In this document: positions 17,234-21,373 of the stretch, in pieces | Position numbering within the stretch: position 1 is the first letter of the stretch | How the letters are laid out: each line of letters starts with the position of its first letter | Assembly (NCBI RefSeq): GCF_017301735.1 | Contig: NZ_CP071090.1 | Location: 3,648,001 to 3,712,000, forward strand | Reading direction: 5' to 3' | Length of the DNA stretch: 64,000 nucleotides | Source of the DNA: Pyxidicoccus parkwaysis | Lineage (GTDB): Bacteria; Myxococcota; Myxococcia; Myxococcales; Myxococcaceae | Translations under genes and position numbers: made by a program | The notes under the pieces: model-generated | What the model was told of the DNA's origin: nothing | Databases searched by the model: none | The model's input: only the letters and a program-made list of their open reading frames with translations

Positions 17234-18205
17234 ATGGCGGTGAATGTCGTGGCGTGGGCCGACCCGGTCCGTCAACCCGAGCCGGGCCGTCTTCGGGCAT
17301 GGCACCTCGTGTGTCCTTCGGACTCACTCCGGCGTGGGCAGGTGATGGGCTTCAACCTGGGCGGGAGGGAGCTGGTTCTCTTCCGGGGACAGGGCGGTGG
17401 CGTGTTTGCGCTGTCCGCGCACTGCGCGCACATGGGCACGCACCTCGCGGGCGGCGACGTCGTCGGCGACTGCCTCCGCTGTCCGCTGCACCACTGGCGC
17501 TTCGACGGAAGCGGCGCCTGTCAGGCGGACGTGGGTGGTCGTCCCGGGCAGAGGCCATTCCCCGTGGTGGAGCGCTTCGGCGCCATCCTCGTCTTCAACG
17601 GGCCCGTGGTCCTCTGTCCTCCACCGGAGGTCGGTGCCGCGGACCTGTCGTGGCGCATCGGCTCCGAAGTCACCGTGAGCTGTGACTGGCTTCCGCTGGT
17701 GGCCAACTCCTTTGACATCGAGCACCTGCGCACCGTGCACCACCGCGAGCTCTGGGACACGCCCGTGCTGGAGCGGTTGGACCCGTTCACCTTGCGCCTG
17801 CGCTACACGTCGCGCGTCACCGGTTCCGGGGCGAGTGACTGGCTGATGAAGACGCTGTCCGGCAATCGCATCCGCGTCACCATCACCGCGCATGGAGGGA
17901 CGCTCCTCTCCGTGGAGAGCGACCTCGGCCGGACGCGGAGTGCCCTGGTTGCGGGCTTCCGCAAGACACCCGAGGGCATGGCCGTGCGGCTGGCCTTCGC
18001 CGCGCGCCGGGGGCGAATCCCGGGCATGGACCGGCTGTCGCTCGCGGTGTCGCGGTGGCTGTTCACGTCGTTCCTGCGCAGGGACTTGTCCGTGCTCCAC
18101 GGCATGCGCTTCAACCTGTCCGGCGCGGCGGAGGACCCCATCCTTCGCCAGTTGATGGACTACACCGCCAGCCTCCCCGAGGACCGCGATGACGAGCGAG
18201 GGTAG
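17234..18205 (+). CDS. Rieske non-haem iron oxygenase
   Basis: This 323-aa oxygenase component has an N-terminal Rieske [2Fe-2S] domain with ligands C64-x-H66 and C83-x2-H86 (CAHMGTH and CLRCPLHHW). The C-terminal catalytic domain holds the mononuclear iron motif D161-I-E-H164-x4-H169. The layout matches single-component members such as VanA, cholesterol 7-desaturase (DAF-36/Neverland) or KshA, which act on sterols, aromatic rings or chlorophyll derivatives. It needs an electron-transfer partner that is not encoded nearby. The gene overlaps the desaturase gene by 17 bases and is the first of three tightly linked genes ending in a PAP2/prenyl-synthase fusion, so a lipid or isoprenoid substrate is a reasonable inference. 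Confidence 0.9.
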   Translation: MAVNVVAWADPVRQPEPGRLRAWHLVCPSDSLRRGQVMGFNLGGRELVLFRGQGGGVFALSAHCAHMGTHLAGGDVVGDCLRCPLHHWRFDGSGACQADVGGRPGQRPFPVVERFGAILVFNGPVVLCPPPEVGAADLSWRIGSEVTVSCDWLPLVANSFDIEHLRTVHHRELWDTPVLERLDPFTLRLRYTSRVTGSGASDWLMKTLSGNRIRVTITAHGGTLLSVESDLGRTRSALVAGFRKTPEGMAVRLAFAARRGRIPGMDRLSLAVSRWLFTSFLRRDLSVLHGMRFNLSGAAEDPILRQLMDYTASLPEDRDDERG

Positions 18206-19154
18206 GGGCACGCCCGTTCCGGCCCGGCTCAACCTCGTGCTGCTGGTCTCGGCGATGACCGCGTGCGCGGGCTGTCTCTGGCTGGCATCTCACGGTGAGA
18301 CGTGGGCTGTGCGACTGGTGGCGGCGGTGGTGTTCTCGTTCGTGAACAACACCGTGTTCTCGCTGCTCCACGAGGCGACGCACGGCGTGCTGCATCCATC
18401 GCGCAGGGTGAATGATGGGTTGGGGCGCGTGGCGGCGACGCTGTTCCCCACGTCGTTCACCATGCAGCGGGCCTTCCACCTCAACCACCACCGGCACAAC
18501 CGGACGCGGCTGGAGCAGTTCGACTACTTCCGGCCCGGCGACAATCGCCTCCTCAAGTGCGCGCAGTGGTACTCCATCCTCAGCGGGCTCTACTGGGTGT
18601 TCGTGCCGGTGGGGGCAGTGGCGTTCGCGCTCGTCCCCGGGCTGCTGCACCGGCTGCGTGGCACGGGGACTCGGTATGGGGAACAGACGGGCGCGGATGC
18701 GTATCTGGGGCGACTGGAGGATGCGCCGGGGTCCGTCATCCGGTGGGAGGTGCTGCTGGCGGCGGGAGTGCAGGGCGGGCTCGCGGTGGCGCTGGACCTG
18801 TCCGTGATGGGATGGGCGCTGTGCTACGCCGCGTTCGCCGTCAACTGGAGTGGGCTCCAGTACGCGGACCATGCGTGGTCTCCGCTGCACGTGCGCGACG
18901 GTGCGTGGGACTTGCGCGTGGCCGCGCCCGTGCGGTGGATGTTCCTCAACTACCACTACCACCGAGCGCACCATCGGCACCCGCATGTGCCGTGGCTCTA
19001 TCTGGGCCGCTACGTGGACCCGAATGTCCCTCGGCCGTCGTTCCTGCGTGTGTGGCTGTCGATGTGGCTCGGGCCCAGGCCGCTGCCCGAGACAGTGGAG
19101 TCTCGTGTGCTTCCGCACGAGGCGCCGTTGACCGTTGCCATGGAGGAGCGATGA
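18189..19154 (+). CDS. Membrane fatty acid desaturase-family protein
   Basis: This 321-aa integral membrane di-iron enzyme has all three histidine boxes: HEATH (61-65), HLNHH (97-101) and HYHRAHH (256-262). Four or so membrane helices lie between them, the arrangement of the FA_desaturase family. That family also contains carotenoid ketolases and hydroxylases and sphingolipid desaturases. The ATG lies inside the end of the Rieske gene, so translation is coupled. The product ends in AMEER, and its last codons carry the Shine-Dalgarno-like GGAGGAG sequence that is repeated before the next gene. With the neighbouring prenyl-synthase-like domain, an isoprenoid substrate is as plausible as a fatty acid. 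Confidence 0.9.
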   Translation: MTSEGRGTPVPARLNLVLLVSAMTACAGCLWLASHGETWAVRLVAAVVFSFVNNTVFSLLHEATHGVLHPSRRVNDGLGRVAATLFPTSFTMQRAFHLNHHRHNRTRLEQFDYFRPGDNRLLKCAQWYSILSGLYWVFVPVGAVAFALVPGLLHRLRGTGTRYGEQTGADAYLGRLEDAPGSVIRWEVLLAAGVQGGLAVALDLSVMGWALCYAAFAVNWSGLQYADHAWSPLHVRDGAWDLRVAAPVRWMFLNYHYHRAHHRHPHVPWLYLGRYVDPNVPRPSFLRVWLSMWLGPRPLPETVESRVLPHEAPLTVAMEER

Positions 19155-19210
19155 GCGGCTGTCCCATGCGAGCTGCTTCGTTGCCCGCGGCGATGGAGGA
19201 GCGATGAGCG
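19140..19210 (+). repeat. 18-bp direct duplication at the desaturase/PAP2 junction
   Basis: ATGGAGGAGCGATGAGCG occurs at 19140-19157 and again at 19193-19210, 53 bases apart. The first copy ends the desaturase gene, the second supplies the ribosome-binding site and start of the next gene. The segment between them is what a short tandem duplication of a stop/start junction would leave. Confidence 0.85.
19151..19207 (+). CDS. Possible 18-codon minicistron between desaturase and PAP2 fusion
   Basis: The ATG at 19151 overlaps the desaturase TGA, and the frame ends at TGA 19205, which overlaps the ATG of the PAP2 fusion gene. The predicted peptide is MSGCPMRAASLPAAMEER. Both of its ends coincide with the duplicated 18-bp junction, so it is probably an accidental product of that duplication. 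It has a good ribosome-binding site and ATGA couplings on both sides, so ribosomes may pass through it to reach the third gene. I would not assign the peptide a function. Confidence 0.25.
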   Translation: MSGCPMRAASLPAAMEER

Positions 19211-20793
19211 AGCGCCCCAGGCTGTTCGGTGTGCCTCGCCGCGATGAGTTGCTGCTCACCGGCTCGCTCGCGCTCGGCTTCGCGTTCTTCTTCCTCGCCG
19301 TGTACGGCGGCGCGAGCTGGGTGACGGGCTTCTATTCCGGTGGCCTCCGCGTGGACCTGCCCTTCGAGCGGCACATCCCATTCATCCCCGCCTGGGCCGC
19401 CGTCTACGTGAGCATGGACGTGCTCCTGCTCCTGTCGCTCTTCGTGTTCCGCACGTGGAAGGACATGGTGCCCTTCGCGCTCGCGCTCTGTGCGGAGACG
19501 GTGGTGGGTGCGGTTGTCTTCGTGTTGCTGCCGGTGGAGGTCGCCTGGCCCGCGCGCGTCGTGCACGATGGCTGGGCCGGCATCTTCTTCGTGGCCGACA
19601 CGATGAACCTGGAGCGCAACTACCTGCCGTCGCTCCATGTGGCCTTCGCCTGCACGGCCGCGCTGGCGTATGCGGAGCGCTCGGGCTGGCTCGCGCGAGT
19701 CCTCTTCGGCCTATGGGCTGCGGCCATTGCCGCGTCCACGTTGTTCATCCACGAGCACCACCTGGTGGACGTGGTGGCGGGCGCGCTGCTCGCCTGGGGG
19801 ATGTGGCGCTTCATTGCGCCCCGGGCCCGTGGTGAGGATTTCCTGGCCGCGCTTCGGGTGGAAGCCTTCTGTGCCCGTGAGCTGTATCGCTTCTCTCGAC
19901 GGCATCTGCGCTACGCGCTGATTGCGCTCGCGCTCTATCGCTATTCGCTGGGCCGGTGGTGGCGCGCGGCCCGTGTAGCCCGGGTGGGGTTCTGCTTCCT
20001 GCAGCTCGTGGACGACGTGCTGGATGGAGACCGCCCCGTGGACGGCGAGCCGCTCGATTGGGTGGACGCATTGCTCACGGAGCTCGAGCCGGGGCGGGGG
20101 CAGGGCATCGGCACTGAAGCCATGCCGGGCCAGATGCGGGCCACAGCGTCGGAGATGGCACGCGAGCAGGCCACCGACATTGCGGCAACGCTGGGACGGG
20201 TGCTGCTCGACAGCCTGGAGTCTCCGGAGGCACGGGCGAATGTCTTCGCCCTCATGCGCACCATGCGGAGGGACCGAGAGCGGGTGCGAGAGCAACGGTG
20301 GCTTTCCGCCGAGCAGCTCATCGCGCAGCACCGCGACACCTTCCGACTGTCCGTGGACCTGATGCTCCACGTGGCCGGAGCCGACGTGCGCGCCTCGGAT
20401 GTGCCGGCGCTCATCGACGCCTTCGGCTGGTGTTCCAGCCTGCGCGACCTGCGCGAGGACCTGGAGGCGGGGCTCTACAACGTGCCAGCCGAAGTGGCGG
20501 AAGAGGTGAGGGCCGAGGGCGCGAACCCGGCCGACTGCGACGCCCTGCTGGCATCCACCACCGGGCGCGCGTGGGTGGTGGCGGAGTACGCCCGCGCCCG
20601 CGTCCTGCTGGACCGCTCCGCCGAGGACCTCGCCACACTCGAAGGACGCACCGGCGTGCCCCTGCTGCGGTTGTTCCACCGCTCCATCGAGAGCTTCCGG
20701 GCAAGGCGGCTGCCCCGCCGCCTGCCGTTCCTGCGCGAGCCTGCGAGCGTCAAGCCGTGGCCTTCTGGCGCCGCGTCATCCGGCCCACGATGA
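19204..20793 (+). CDS. PAP2-type phosphatase fused to squalene/phytoene-synthase-like domain
   Basis: This 529-aa two-domain protein starts at ATG 19204 with GGAGGAG just upstream. Residues 1-220 are a polytopic membrane PAP2 domain of the Aur1/inositolphosphotransferase-like type. LPSLHVAF has the catalytic His at 145, and the last motif is S178-T-x5-H185-x3-D189, with the usual Arg replaced by Thr. Residues 225-510 look like a trans-isoprenyl diphosphate synthase of the squalene/phytoene synthase class. The first Asp-rich motif is D270-D-x2-D274 (VDDVLD) and the second is D415-x2-ED419 in LRDLREDLEAGLYNVP, which parallels the RDIGEDxxxGRxYLP signature. A head-to-head prenyl synthase joined to a diphosphate-removing membrane domain would make and dephosphorylate, or membrane-anchor, a C30-C40 product. 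Which substrates it accepts is not known. Confidence 0.82.
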   Translation: MSERPRLFGVPRRDELLLTGSLALGFAFFFLAVYGGASWVTGFYSGGLRVDLPFERHIPFIPAWAAVYVSMDVLLLLSLFVFRTWKDMVPFALALCAETVVGAVVFVLLPVEVAWPARVVHDGWAGIFFVADTMNLERNYLPSLHVAFACTAALAYAERSGWLARVLFGLWAAAIAASTLFIHEHHLVDVVAGALLAWGMWRFIAPRARGEDFLAALRVEAFCARELYRFSRRHLRYALIALALYRYSLGRWWRAARVARVGFCFLQLVDDVLDGDRPVDGEPLDWVDALLTELEPGRGQGIGTEAMPGQMRATASEMAREQATDIAATLGRVLLDSLESPEARANVFALMRTMRRDRERVREQRWLSAEQLIAQHRDTFRLSVDLMLHVAGADVRASDVPALIDAFGWCSSLRDLREDLEAGLYNVPAEVAEEVRAEGANPADCDALLASTTGRAWVVAEYARARVLLDRSAEDLATLEGRTGVPLLRLFHRSIESFRARRLPRRLPFLREPASVKPWPSGAASSGPR

Positions 20794-21373
20794 AGCCCGC
20801 GAGGAGCGCGCCCAGCGTCGCGACGGCGATGAAGATGCCGCCGTAGTACTTCAGCTTCTCGAGGAGCGGGTTGTCGAAGACGTTGGTGGAGTAGTGGAAG
20901 GCGGCAATCAGCCACTTGTCGCCCTCGCGCACGAGCGTGCACGTCCACCGGCCGTCGATGACGATGTCCGTGCCGTCCGTGAGCACGTAGTGGTCCTTCG
21001 ACGAGCCCCAGGCAAGGCCCGTGTTGCCATAGAGGTGCGTCAGGTCATCCACCTCGAACTTCGCGGTGATCTTGTCCACCACGCGGTTCGGCCCGCGCAT
21101 CATCTCGTCGTAGTACGCGCGGATGGCGTCCTTGCCCACGCGCACGTCGTTGTTCATGGTGGTGAAGACGACGTCCGGGGTCAGGTGGGACAGCAGCCGG
21201 TCCACGTCCTGCTTGTTGAGCGCGTCCTCCATGTCCTGCTTGAGGGCGCGCAGCGCGTTGTGCGTGGCCTCCACGTCCGCGGGCGCGCCGCCGGCCGCGG
21301 CATCCTGGGCCTGGCCGGGTGCCGCGACGAGCAAGAGCAGCAATGCCACCACACCGCCGAGGGTCCGCGTCAT
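20750..21373 (-). CDS. NTF2-like (SnoaL/DUF4440-type) secreted protein with C-terminal membrane anchor
   Basis: This 207-aa protein starts at ATG 21373 after CAGGAGA. Residues 1-22 are a signal peptide ending AQA. Residues about 35-165 form an NTF2-like cone fold: ALKQDMEDALNKQDVDRLLSHLTPDVVFTT, then KDAIRAYYDEMM, then DGRWTCTLVREGDKWLIAAFHYS. A C-terminal hydrophobic helix (YYGGIFIAVATLGALLAGF) and basic tail RMTRRQK would anchor it with the domain in the periplasm. Such proteins bind small molecules or serve as isomerases; no catalytic residues can be named. It overlaps the end of the PAP2 fusion gene by 44 bases in the convergent direction. Confidence 0.8.
   Translation of the reverse strand: MTRTLGGVVALLLLLVAAPGQAQDAAAGGAPADVEATHNALRALKQDMEDALNKQDVDRLLSHLTPDVVFTTMNNDVRVGKDAIRAYYDEMMRGPNRVVDKITAKFEVDDLTHLYGNTGLAWGSSKDHYVLTDGTDIVIDGRWTCTLVREGDKWLIAAFHYSTNVFDNPLLEKLKYYGGIFIAVATLGALLAGFIVGRMTRRQKATA

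Follow-up and report, generated by a model that had tools for sequence, protein, structure and literature searches.

The head-to-head isoprenoid synthases, such as HpnC, CrtM, CrtB and squalene synthase, and a set of related prenyltransferases are the described systems closest to the locus considered here. A human phosphatase of the PAP2 family acts on presqualene diphosphate, which provides a precedent for PAP2 activity on a presqualene-type intermediate. The prenyltransferases CqsB4 and LvqB4 belong to a phytoene-synthase-like family described with NozPT (PMC10156859). The window, that is the whole stretch of 64,000 nucleotides analysed (G000:C1:3648001-3712000, contig NZ_CP071090.1), comes from the complete 13.2 Mb genome of the myxobacterium Pyxidicoccus parkwaysis. 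In this window, genes for a Rieske oxygenase, a membrane desaturase and a fusion of a PAP2 domain with a prenyl-synthase-like domain stand in a row and are co-inherited with a convergent gene for a SnoaL-like protein. The four genes are tentatively read, with confidence somewhat short of even, as a membrane-lipid tailoring unit acting with an unlinked GH3/Rieske operon. The features of the locus are listed below by window position.

17234..18205, + strand: Rieske non-haem iron oxygenase, 323 amino acids (PF00355, E 2.9e-20)
18189..19154, + strand: membrane protein of the FA_desaturase family, 321 amino acids, with three His boxes (PF00487, E 5.2e-27)
19204..20793, + strand: fusion protein, 529 amino acids, with an N-terminal PAP2 membrane domain and a C-terminal head-to-head prenyl-synthase-like domain (ATG 19204, GGAGG upstream)
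19204..19830, + strand: PAP2 domain, residues ~1-209 (PF14378, E 1.4e-9, residues 87-224 of the longer open reading frame)
19840..20733, + strand: predicted head-to-head prenyl-synthase-like domain, residues ~213-510 (AlphaFold 2, Foldseek, VIA)
20011..20025, + strand: Asp-rich motif I, DDVLD, residues 270-274, invariant in 21 relatives and aligned with motif I of CrtB and squalene synthases
20446..20460, + strand: Asp-rich motif II, DLRED, residues 415-419, within RDLREDLxxGLYNVP, invariant in 21 relatives
20750..21373, - strand: SnoaL/DUF4440-like protein, 207 amino acids (PF14534, 3.9e-11; TIGR02246, 1.2e-12)

The distribution searches covered Myxococcota genomes (193-195), one genome contig scan and a plasmid collection. 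The Rieske gene was found at an identity of at least 62% in 36/193 Myxococcota genomes, desaturase orthologues at an identity of at least 70% in 35, and the prenyl-synthase-like domain, searched as a profile, in 36/195, in addition to one marginal match at chance level. The Rieske, fusion-domain and SnoaL genes occupy the same 36 genomes, and the desaturase is present in 35 of them. It is absent solely from G074, where a natural deletion (L057:8655-10545) has removed the desaturase and the PAP2 domain while the Rieske gene and the prenyl-synthase-like domain are still open. Since the order of the trio is identical in every related locus compared except this deletion, it does not arise from chance. 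The presence of the trio varies together within three genera (g1, g3 and g7), so its genes were gained or lost jointly, although the independent events are few. The three genes are one co-inherited unit, and the co-occurrence of Rieske and desaturase genes with the fusion, proposed as a check in the preliminary description of this DNA, was borne out. The contig scan with the fusion returned only two close relatives, both Myxococcus-type genomes, and in the plasmid records the PAP2 part alone was matched.

The unit is larger than the trio recognized in the preliminary description, which missed the convergent gene. This gene overlaps the 3' end of the fusion gene by 44 bases and lies near the unit in every neighbourhood examined. 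Its product has a hydrophobic signal at the N terminus and a membrane segment at the C terminus. Outside the 36 trio genomes, one weak match and no other was found across the Myxococcota sample; co-occurrence with the trio was tested by Fisher test. The SnoaL-like gene is the fourth member of the unit. It is highly improbable that these are unrelated enzymes whose four genes form a conserved but functionally neutral neighbourhood. The opposite strand of the SnoaL gene, and an extra gene that separates it from the fusion gene in Corallococcus, would suit such an explanation, but it is largely refuted by the almost perfect agreement of the genes in presence and absence within three genera, by the translational-type overlaps in the trio and by a gammaproteobacterial plasmid that carries the same desaturase, PAP2 and SnoaL families together.

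Genes in the fetched neighbour loci were called by a simple codon-usage script, and their starts are approximate. The gene separating the fusion and SnoaL genes in Corallococcus (L054:5863-7173) encodes a membrane protein that is DUF418-like by eye. One record (L003, BNCN01000004.1), titled Comamonas sp. KCTC 72670, has 70% GC and shows 100% identity over 3.8 kb to a genome of the genus Myxococcus (G107, L044); it is very probably a mislabelled Myxococcus.

The identities of the trio genes and their positions, as given in the preliminary description, were confirmed by Pfam matches, motifs and fold. That the three genes overlap proved correct for the Rieske and desaturase genes, which share 17 bases, whereas a gap of 49 bases separates the desaturase and fusion genes when the latter starts at ATG 19204; in relatives such as L002 these two genes overlap as ATGA. 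This ATG, standing behind GGAGG, is most plausibly the start of the fusion gene, rather than TTG 19135, and the earlier residue numbering fits it. The Rieske protein has the cluster ligands C64-x-H66 and C83-x2-H86 as well as D161-x2-H164-x4-H169, which corresponds to the CxH-x16/18-CxxH and D-x2-H-x4-H patterns of Rieske oxygenases, and the ligand pattern is kept in ten relatives. The earlier statement that its ligands are intact holds to this extent, while the third iron carboxylate was not located in the sequence. The closest solved structures are 3-ketosteroid 9alpha-hydroxylase and dicamba O-demethylase. Outside the unit, Rieske relatives (L125-L128) are found in unlike gene contexts. The desaturase scores 95.7 bits with PF00487 (cut-off 29.7) and shows all three His boxes reported before, HEATH at 61, HLNHH at 97 and HRAHH in 256-262, which places it in the FA_desaturase superfamily.

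Neither protein reaches the cut-off of the sterol or carotenoid enzymes that it weakly resembles. The Rieske protein reaches 42 bits with the sterol demethylase SdmA (NF052579, equivalog cut-off 600), and the desaturase 30 bits with CrtW (cut-off 350) and 23 bits with CrtR (cut-off 475). Most Myxococcus genomes with the trio, among them that of the window, have CrtB as their sole canonical SQS_PSY protein. A search of the window's genome gave no full-length SHC/OSC, and its crtB lies 5.5 Mb from the unit. Sterol or hopanoid tailoring was rejected as the default because of the CrtB-only complement, the missing cyclase and the low SdmA score. Carotenoid tailoring was rejected because of the low CrtW and CrtR scores and the distance of crtB.

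The PAP2 half of the fusion protein passes the Pfam cut-offs of PF14378 (38.4 vs 27 bits) and PF01569 (27.7 vs 27.2 bits). AlphaFold 2 places helices at residues 13-41, 62-81, 85-108, 141-159, 162-182 and 187-208, with low confidence in this half; five of the six are also seen by hydropathy, and basic residues precede the first and follow the last. The predicted topology has both ends of the protein in the cytosol, the PAP2 catalytic His outside and the prenyl-synthase-like domain inside. The residues listed in the preliminary description, H145 and S178-T-x5-H185-x3-D189 together with the DDxxD at 270-274 and the DxxED at 415-419, are invariant in an alignment of 21 relatives with identities down to about 70%. 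PSLH and the His/Asp pair are also kept in paralogues; with H145 and with H185 and D189, they represent the C2 PSxH and C3 His/Asp elements of the PAP2 superfamily. The protein shares PSLH and H185-x3-D189 with the PAP2_3 lipid phosphatases and phosphotransferases (PF14378). Unlike them, it has T179 after S178 in place of the C3 Arg of the classical phosphatases, and no KxxxxxxRP (C1) is visible on reading its translation. Because of these two differences, the PAP2 half does not look like a textbook lipid phosphatase.

For the C-terminal domain, the AlphaFold 2 model of the domain alone has a pLDDT of 83.9 and a pTM of 0.79. Foldseek ranks HpnC first (E 1.6e-3, prob 1.00), followed by CrtM-like proteins. 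VIA-align gives Z 17.5-18.0 for CrtM-like proteins, LvqB4, HpnC and CqsB4, with human squalene synthase (Z 16) and terpene cyclases (Z 14-15.5) ranking lower; the class I head-to-head fold is matched with Z 17.5 over 253 residues at 3.9 A. Given the first place of HpnC and this ranking, the modelled fold is that of the head-to-head enzymes and their prenyltransferase offshoots. The squalene/phytoene-synthase-like character assigned to this half earlier therefore passed a structural check set beforehand. The similarity is hardly visible to profile methods: the window copy has no Pfam match to PF00494 (SQS_PSY), and 3/11 relatives have one (best E 4.7e-4). Assignment as a carotenoid or squalene synthase by simple homology was rejected, as searching PDB sequences with the domain gave no match. 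A 22-residue insertion (window 20113-20178) is present only in this genome's fusion copy among those aligned; its sequence is single-copy in the genome and hence not a dispersed repeat.

The two Asp-rich metal/diphosphate motifs of SQS_PSY proteins are both present (D270-D274 and D415-D419). Compared profile to profile with the CrtB and squalene synthases of myxobacteria, the motif II region RDLREDLxxGLYNVP aligned with RDVREDLERGRVYLP of CrtB. Judging by these motifs, the domain putatively still handles a prenyl diphosphate with metal. Outside the motifs, the residues common to CrtB and squalene synthases are replaced in the one joint alignment made with the window protein and its relatives, and the conserved residues of SQS_PSY are thus not retained. 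The motif-I Arg has become Gln267 and the Tyr Phe263 (both invariant in the 21-sequence alignment), the YCYxVAGxVG helix reads TFRLSVxLML, and the Asn preceding motif II is Ser, the last two in the window protein and the aligned relatives. Because of these replacements, a C30 or C40 head-to-head product cannot be assumed. Prenyl transfer to another acceptor, of the kind carried out by CqsB4 and LvqB4, appears at least as likely from the model.

The preliminary description had proposed the synthesis of a C30-C40 isoprenoid. This was not supported, since head-to-head residues outside the Asp motifs are lost and the structure ranking ties in prenyltransferases of other acceptors. A true C30/C40 synthase of the squalene, dehydrosqualene, presqualene or phytoene type, whose diphosphate PAP2 would remove before the desaturase and Rieske enzymes modify the terpene, is accorded a rather low probability. 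It would explain the intact Asp motifs with their head-to-head-like motif-II signature and HpnC as the best Foldseek match. It also fits the NCBIfam results, in which the desaturase weakly resembles CrtW/CrtR and the Rieske protein SdmA, and the lack of any other squalene-type synthase in most Myxococcus genomes that carry the trio. It does not agree with the replaced Arg, Tyr, helix and Asn, nor with a desaturase-PAP2-SnoaL core that exists in Citrobacter without such a domain. Co-inheritance with a GH3 operon would be unexpected for a plain terpene, and the window's genome yielded no full-length SQHop cyclase.

The domain could also have lost prenyl synthesis and only bind a prenyl phosphate or a lipid, in which case the unit would dephosphorylate, desaturate and hydroxylate a lipid of the acyl or sphingoid type. 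This is considered unlikely: the divergent active site, the GH3 link and the desaturase-PAP2 pairs and PAP2-desaturase fusion that do without the domain beside HlyIII/PAQR-type proteins favour it, but no Asp of either motif varies among the 21 sequences, and G074 keeps the domain and the Rieske gene open after the loss of its desaturase and PAP2.

Returning to membrane-lipid tailoring with a GH3 partner, the second operon has the order 930-955-amino-acid protein, 257-amino-acid protein, GH3, second Rieske, with a divergent FA_desaturase gene in several loci. The large protein is NqrB/RnfD-like with FG-GAP/UnbV in the one that was scanned. In the window's genome, the operon is found as follows.

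L131:2968-11353, G000:C1 about 11326968-11335353: FA_desaturase, 209-amino-acid protein, NqrB/RnfD plus FG-GAP/UnbV giant protein, 257-amino-acid protein, GH3 and second Rieske

Every one of the Myxococcaceae with the trio (36/36) has GH3. Within the window's genus, GH3 was found in 14/14 genomes with the trio vs 1/13 without it, and the lone exception (G108) carries a paralogous PAP2-desaturase pair. Orthologues of the 257-amino-acid protein with an identity of at least 67% were found in 42 genomes, including all 36 with the trio. The distribution of the trio is thus nested inside that of the GH3 operon. Acyl amides are the products of GH3 enzymes, and the co-inheritance of this operon with the unit suggests an amide-type lipid.

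Desaturase and PAP2 also recur together without the prenyl-synthase-like domain. In several trio genomes, desaturase paralogues of 40-42% identity adjoin separate PAP2 genes. Two genomes of another genus contain a direct PAP2-desaturase fusion (L119:9594-11144 and L120:10015-11589) followed by an HlyIII/PAQR-type gene. The plasmid collection gave two desaturase matches, the better one on the Citrobacter portucalensis plasmid NZ_CP134684.1, where genes for the desaturase, PAP2, SnoaL, GH3 and a relative of the 257-amino-acid partner lie within about 12 kb. Identities to the window unit are 40% for the desaturase, 37% for PAP2 and 30% for SnoaL. The SnoaL gene adjoins PAP2, and its product shows the same layout of signal and anchor as in the window. 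The relative of the 257-amino-acid protein has 238 amino acids here (about 33% identity, E to 1e-32). Further genes of the cluster encode a GNAT protein and five radical SAM proteins, with B12-binding domains in the four whose Pfam matches were read. Megablast found no other copy of this gene cluster (L129, NZ_CP134684.1 50643-75497) in the plasmid and E. coli collections. On Burkholderia arboris pla_1, a plasmid or chromid, a desaturase of 34% identity adjoins GH3 and Rieske genes; relatives from this species are 40-45% (Rieske) and 37-43% (FA_desaturase) identical to proteins of the GH3 operon.

Searching the Citrobacter and Burkholderia loci with the domain profile gave no convincing match. 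The prenyl-synthase-like domain and the window-type Rieske protein would be myxobacterial additions to a desaturase-PAP2-SnoaL core. The sequence of events suggested earlier from the gene order, namely isoprenoid synthesis, PAP2 action, desaturation and oxygenation, lost its support, as the desaturase and PAP2 core recurs without the domain and the fourth gene and the GH3 operon point to an amide-type lipid.

In the lipid-tailoring scheme proposed here, the GH3 ligase and its 257-amino-acid partner would couple an acyl chain with an amino compound to give an amide-type lipid, and the desaturase or desaturases and the two Rieske oxygenases would add double bonds or oxygen. The cytosolic C-terminal domain of the fusion would bind a prenyl diphosphate by means of metal and the two Asp motifs, and then either condense two prenyl units or, more probably in view of the lost head-to-head residues, transfer one prenyl chain to a non-isoprenoid acceptor, in the manner of CqsB4 and LvqB4. 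PAP2 would act on a lipid phosphate at the periplasmic face by means of H185 and D189 with H145, and the anchored SnoaL domain may isomerize, dehydrate or bind the product at the periplasmic side. The observations behind this scheme are the domain identities, the conserved order, the co-inheritance of the four genes, their nesting in the GH3 distribution and the co-location in Citrobacter.

Several points weigh against it. In six genomes the GH3 operon is present but the trio is absent, and the operon and the unit are unlinked in myxobacteria. Their co-occurrence covers few independent lineages, with three varying genera (g1, g3 and g7), and the pattern in g1 may reflect one clade event. The nearest named model for the GH3 proteins is the lyso-ornithine-lipid synthetase OlsH (NF052613), whose cut-off is 620 bits. 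Both the partner-operon and the Citrobacter GH3 proteins resemble it weakly (36-42 bits) and fall outside its family, so the amide-lipid proposal draws on general GH3 chemistry. The putative prenyl role of the fusion domain is read from fold and motifs, and its prenyl-transfer variant from structural similarity. In the open-access literature, no experiment with a member of the unit was found. Nor did this literature yield a description of the trio or of its M. xanthus locus tags (subscription journals were outside the search), in agreement with the earlier remark that no described pathway with exactly this trio is known.

A more specific version of the scheme is doubtful but can be stated. The product might be a hybrid lipid, amide-linked by GH3, prenylated by the membrane-tethered PAP2/prenyl-transferase fusion and then desaturated and oxygenated, in a pathway spread over two unlinked Myxococcaceae operons with variants on enterobacterial and Burkholderia plasmids. 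In Myxococcus, genes are readily deleted and lipid signals matter in development; as the unit occurs in this genus, its product could be sought directly by lipidomics. A membrane-tied branch of the head-to-head fold, with intact Asp motifs and altered active-site surroundings, bears on how squalene-type enzymes give rise to prenyltransferases. As a plasmid from another phylum shares the desaturase-PAP2-SnoaL-GH3 set, there may be a wider, as yet unnamed pathway.

Among the systems compared, the Citrobacter cluster (NZ_CP134684 50.5-63.5 kb) has a homologous desaturase, PAP2 and membrane-anchored SnoaL protein, and homologues of GH3 and its 257-amino-acid partner as well. Unlike the window unit, its PAP2 is unfused, and five radical SAM proteins and GNAT stand there instead of Rieske. 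With HpnC (PDB 4hd1), CrtM and CrtM-like proteins (2zco, 8is6-8isa) and CrtB (PF00494), the window domain shares the whole-domain fold (VIA Z 16-18), DDxxD, DxxED and the RDxREDxxxG signature. It differs from them in its low identity (9-21%), in lacking a PF00494 match and the conserved Arg, Tyr, YCYxVAGxVG and Asn, and in being fused to a PAP2 membrane domain. CqsB4 (7vwt) and LvqB4 (7vws) have the same fold, with Z 17.5 and 17.7, tied with HpnC, and the canonical SQS_PSY profile likewise matches them mainly around motif II. These two enzymes are carbazole/indole prenyltransferases with 15-16% identity to the window domain in the structure alignment, and PDB sequence searches gave no direct match between them and the domain. 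To our knowledge, no PAP2 fusion has been described for prenyltransferases of the CqsB4/LvqB4 type, from which the myxobacterial protein is set apart by its membrane half.

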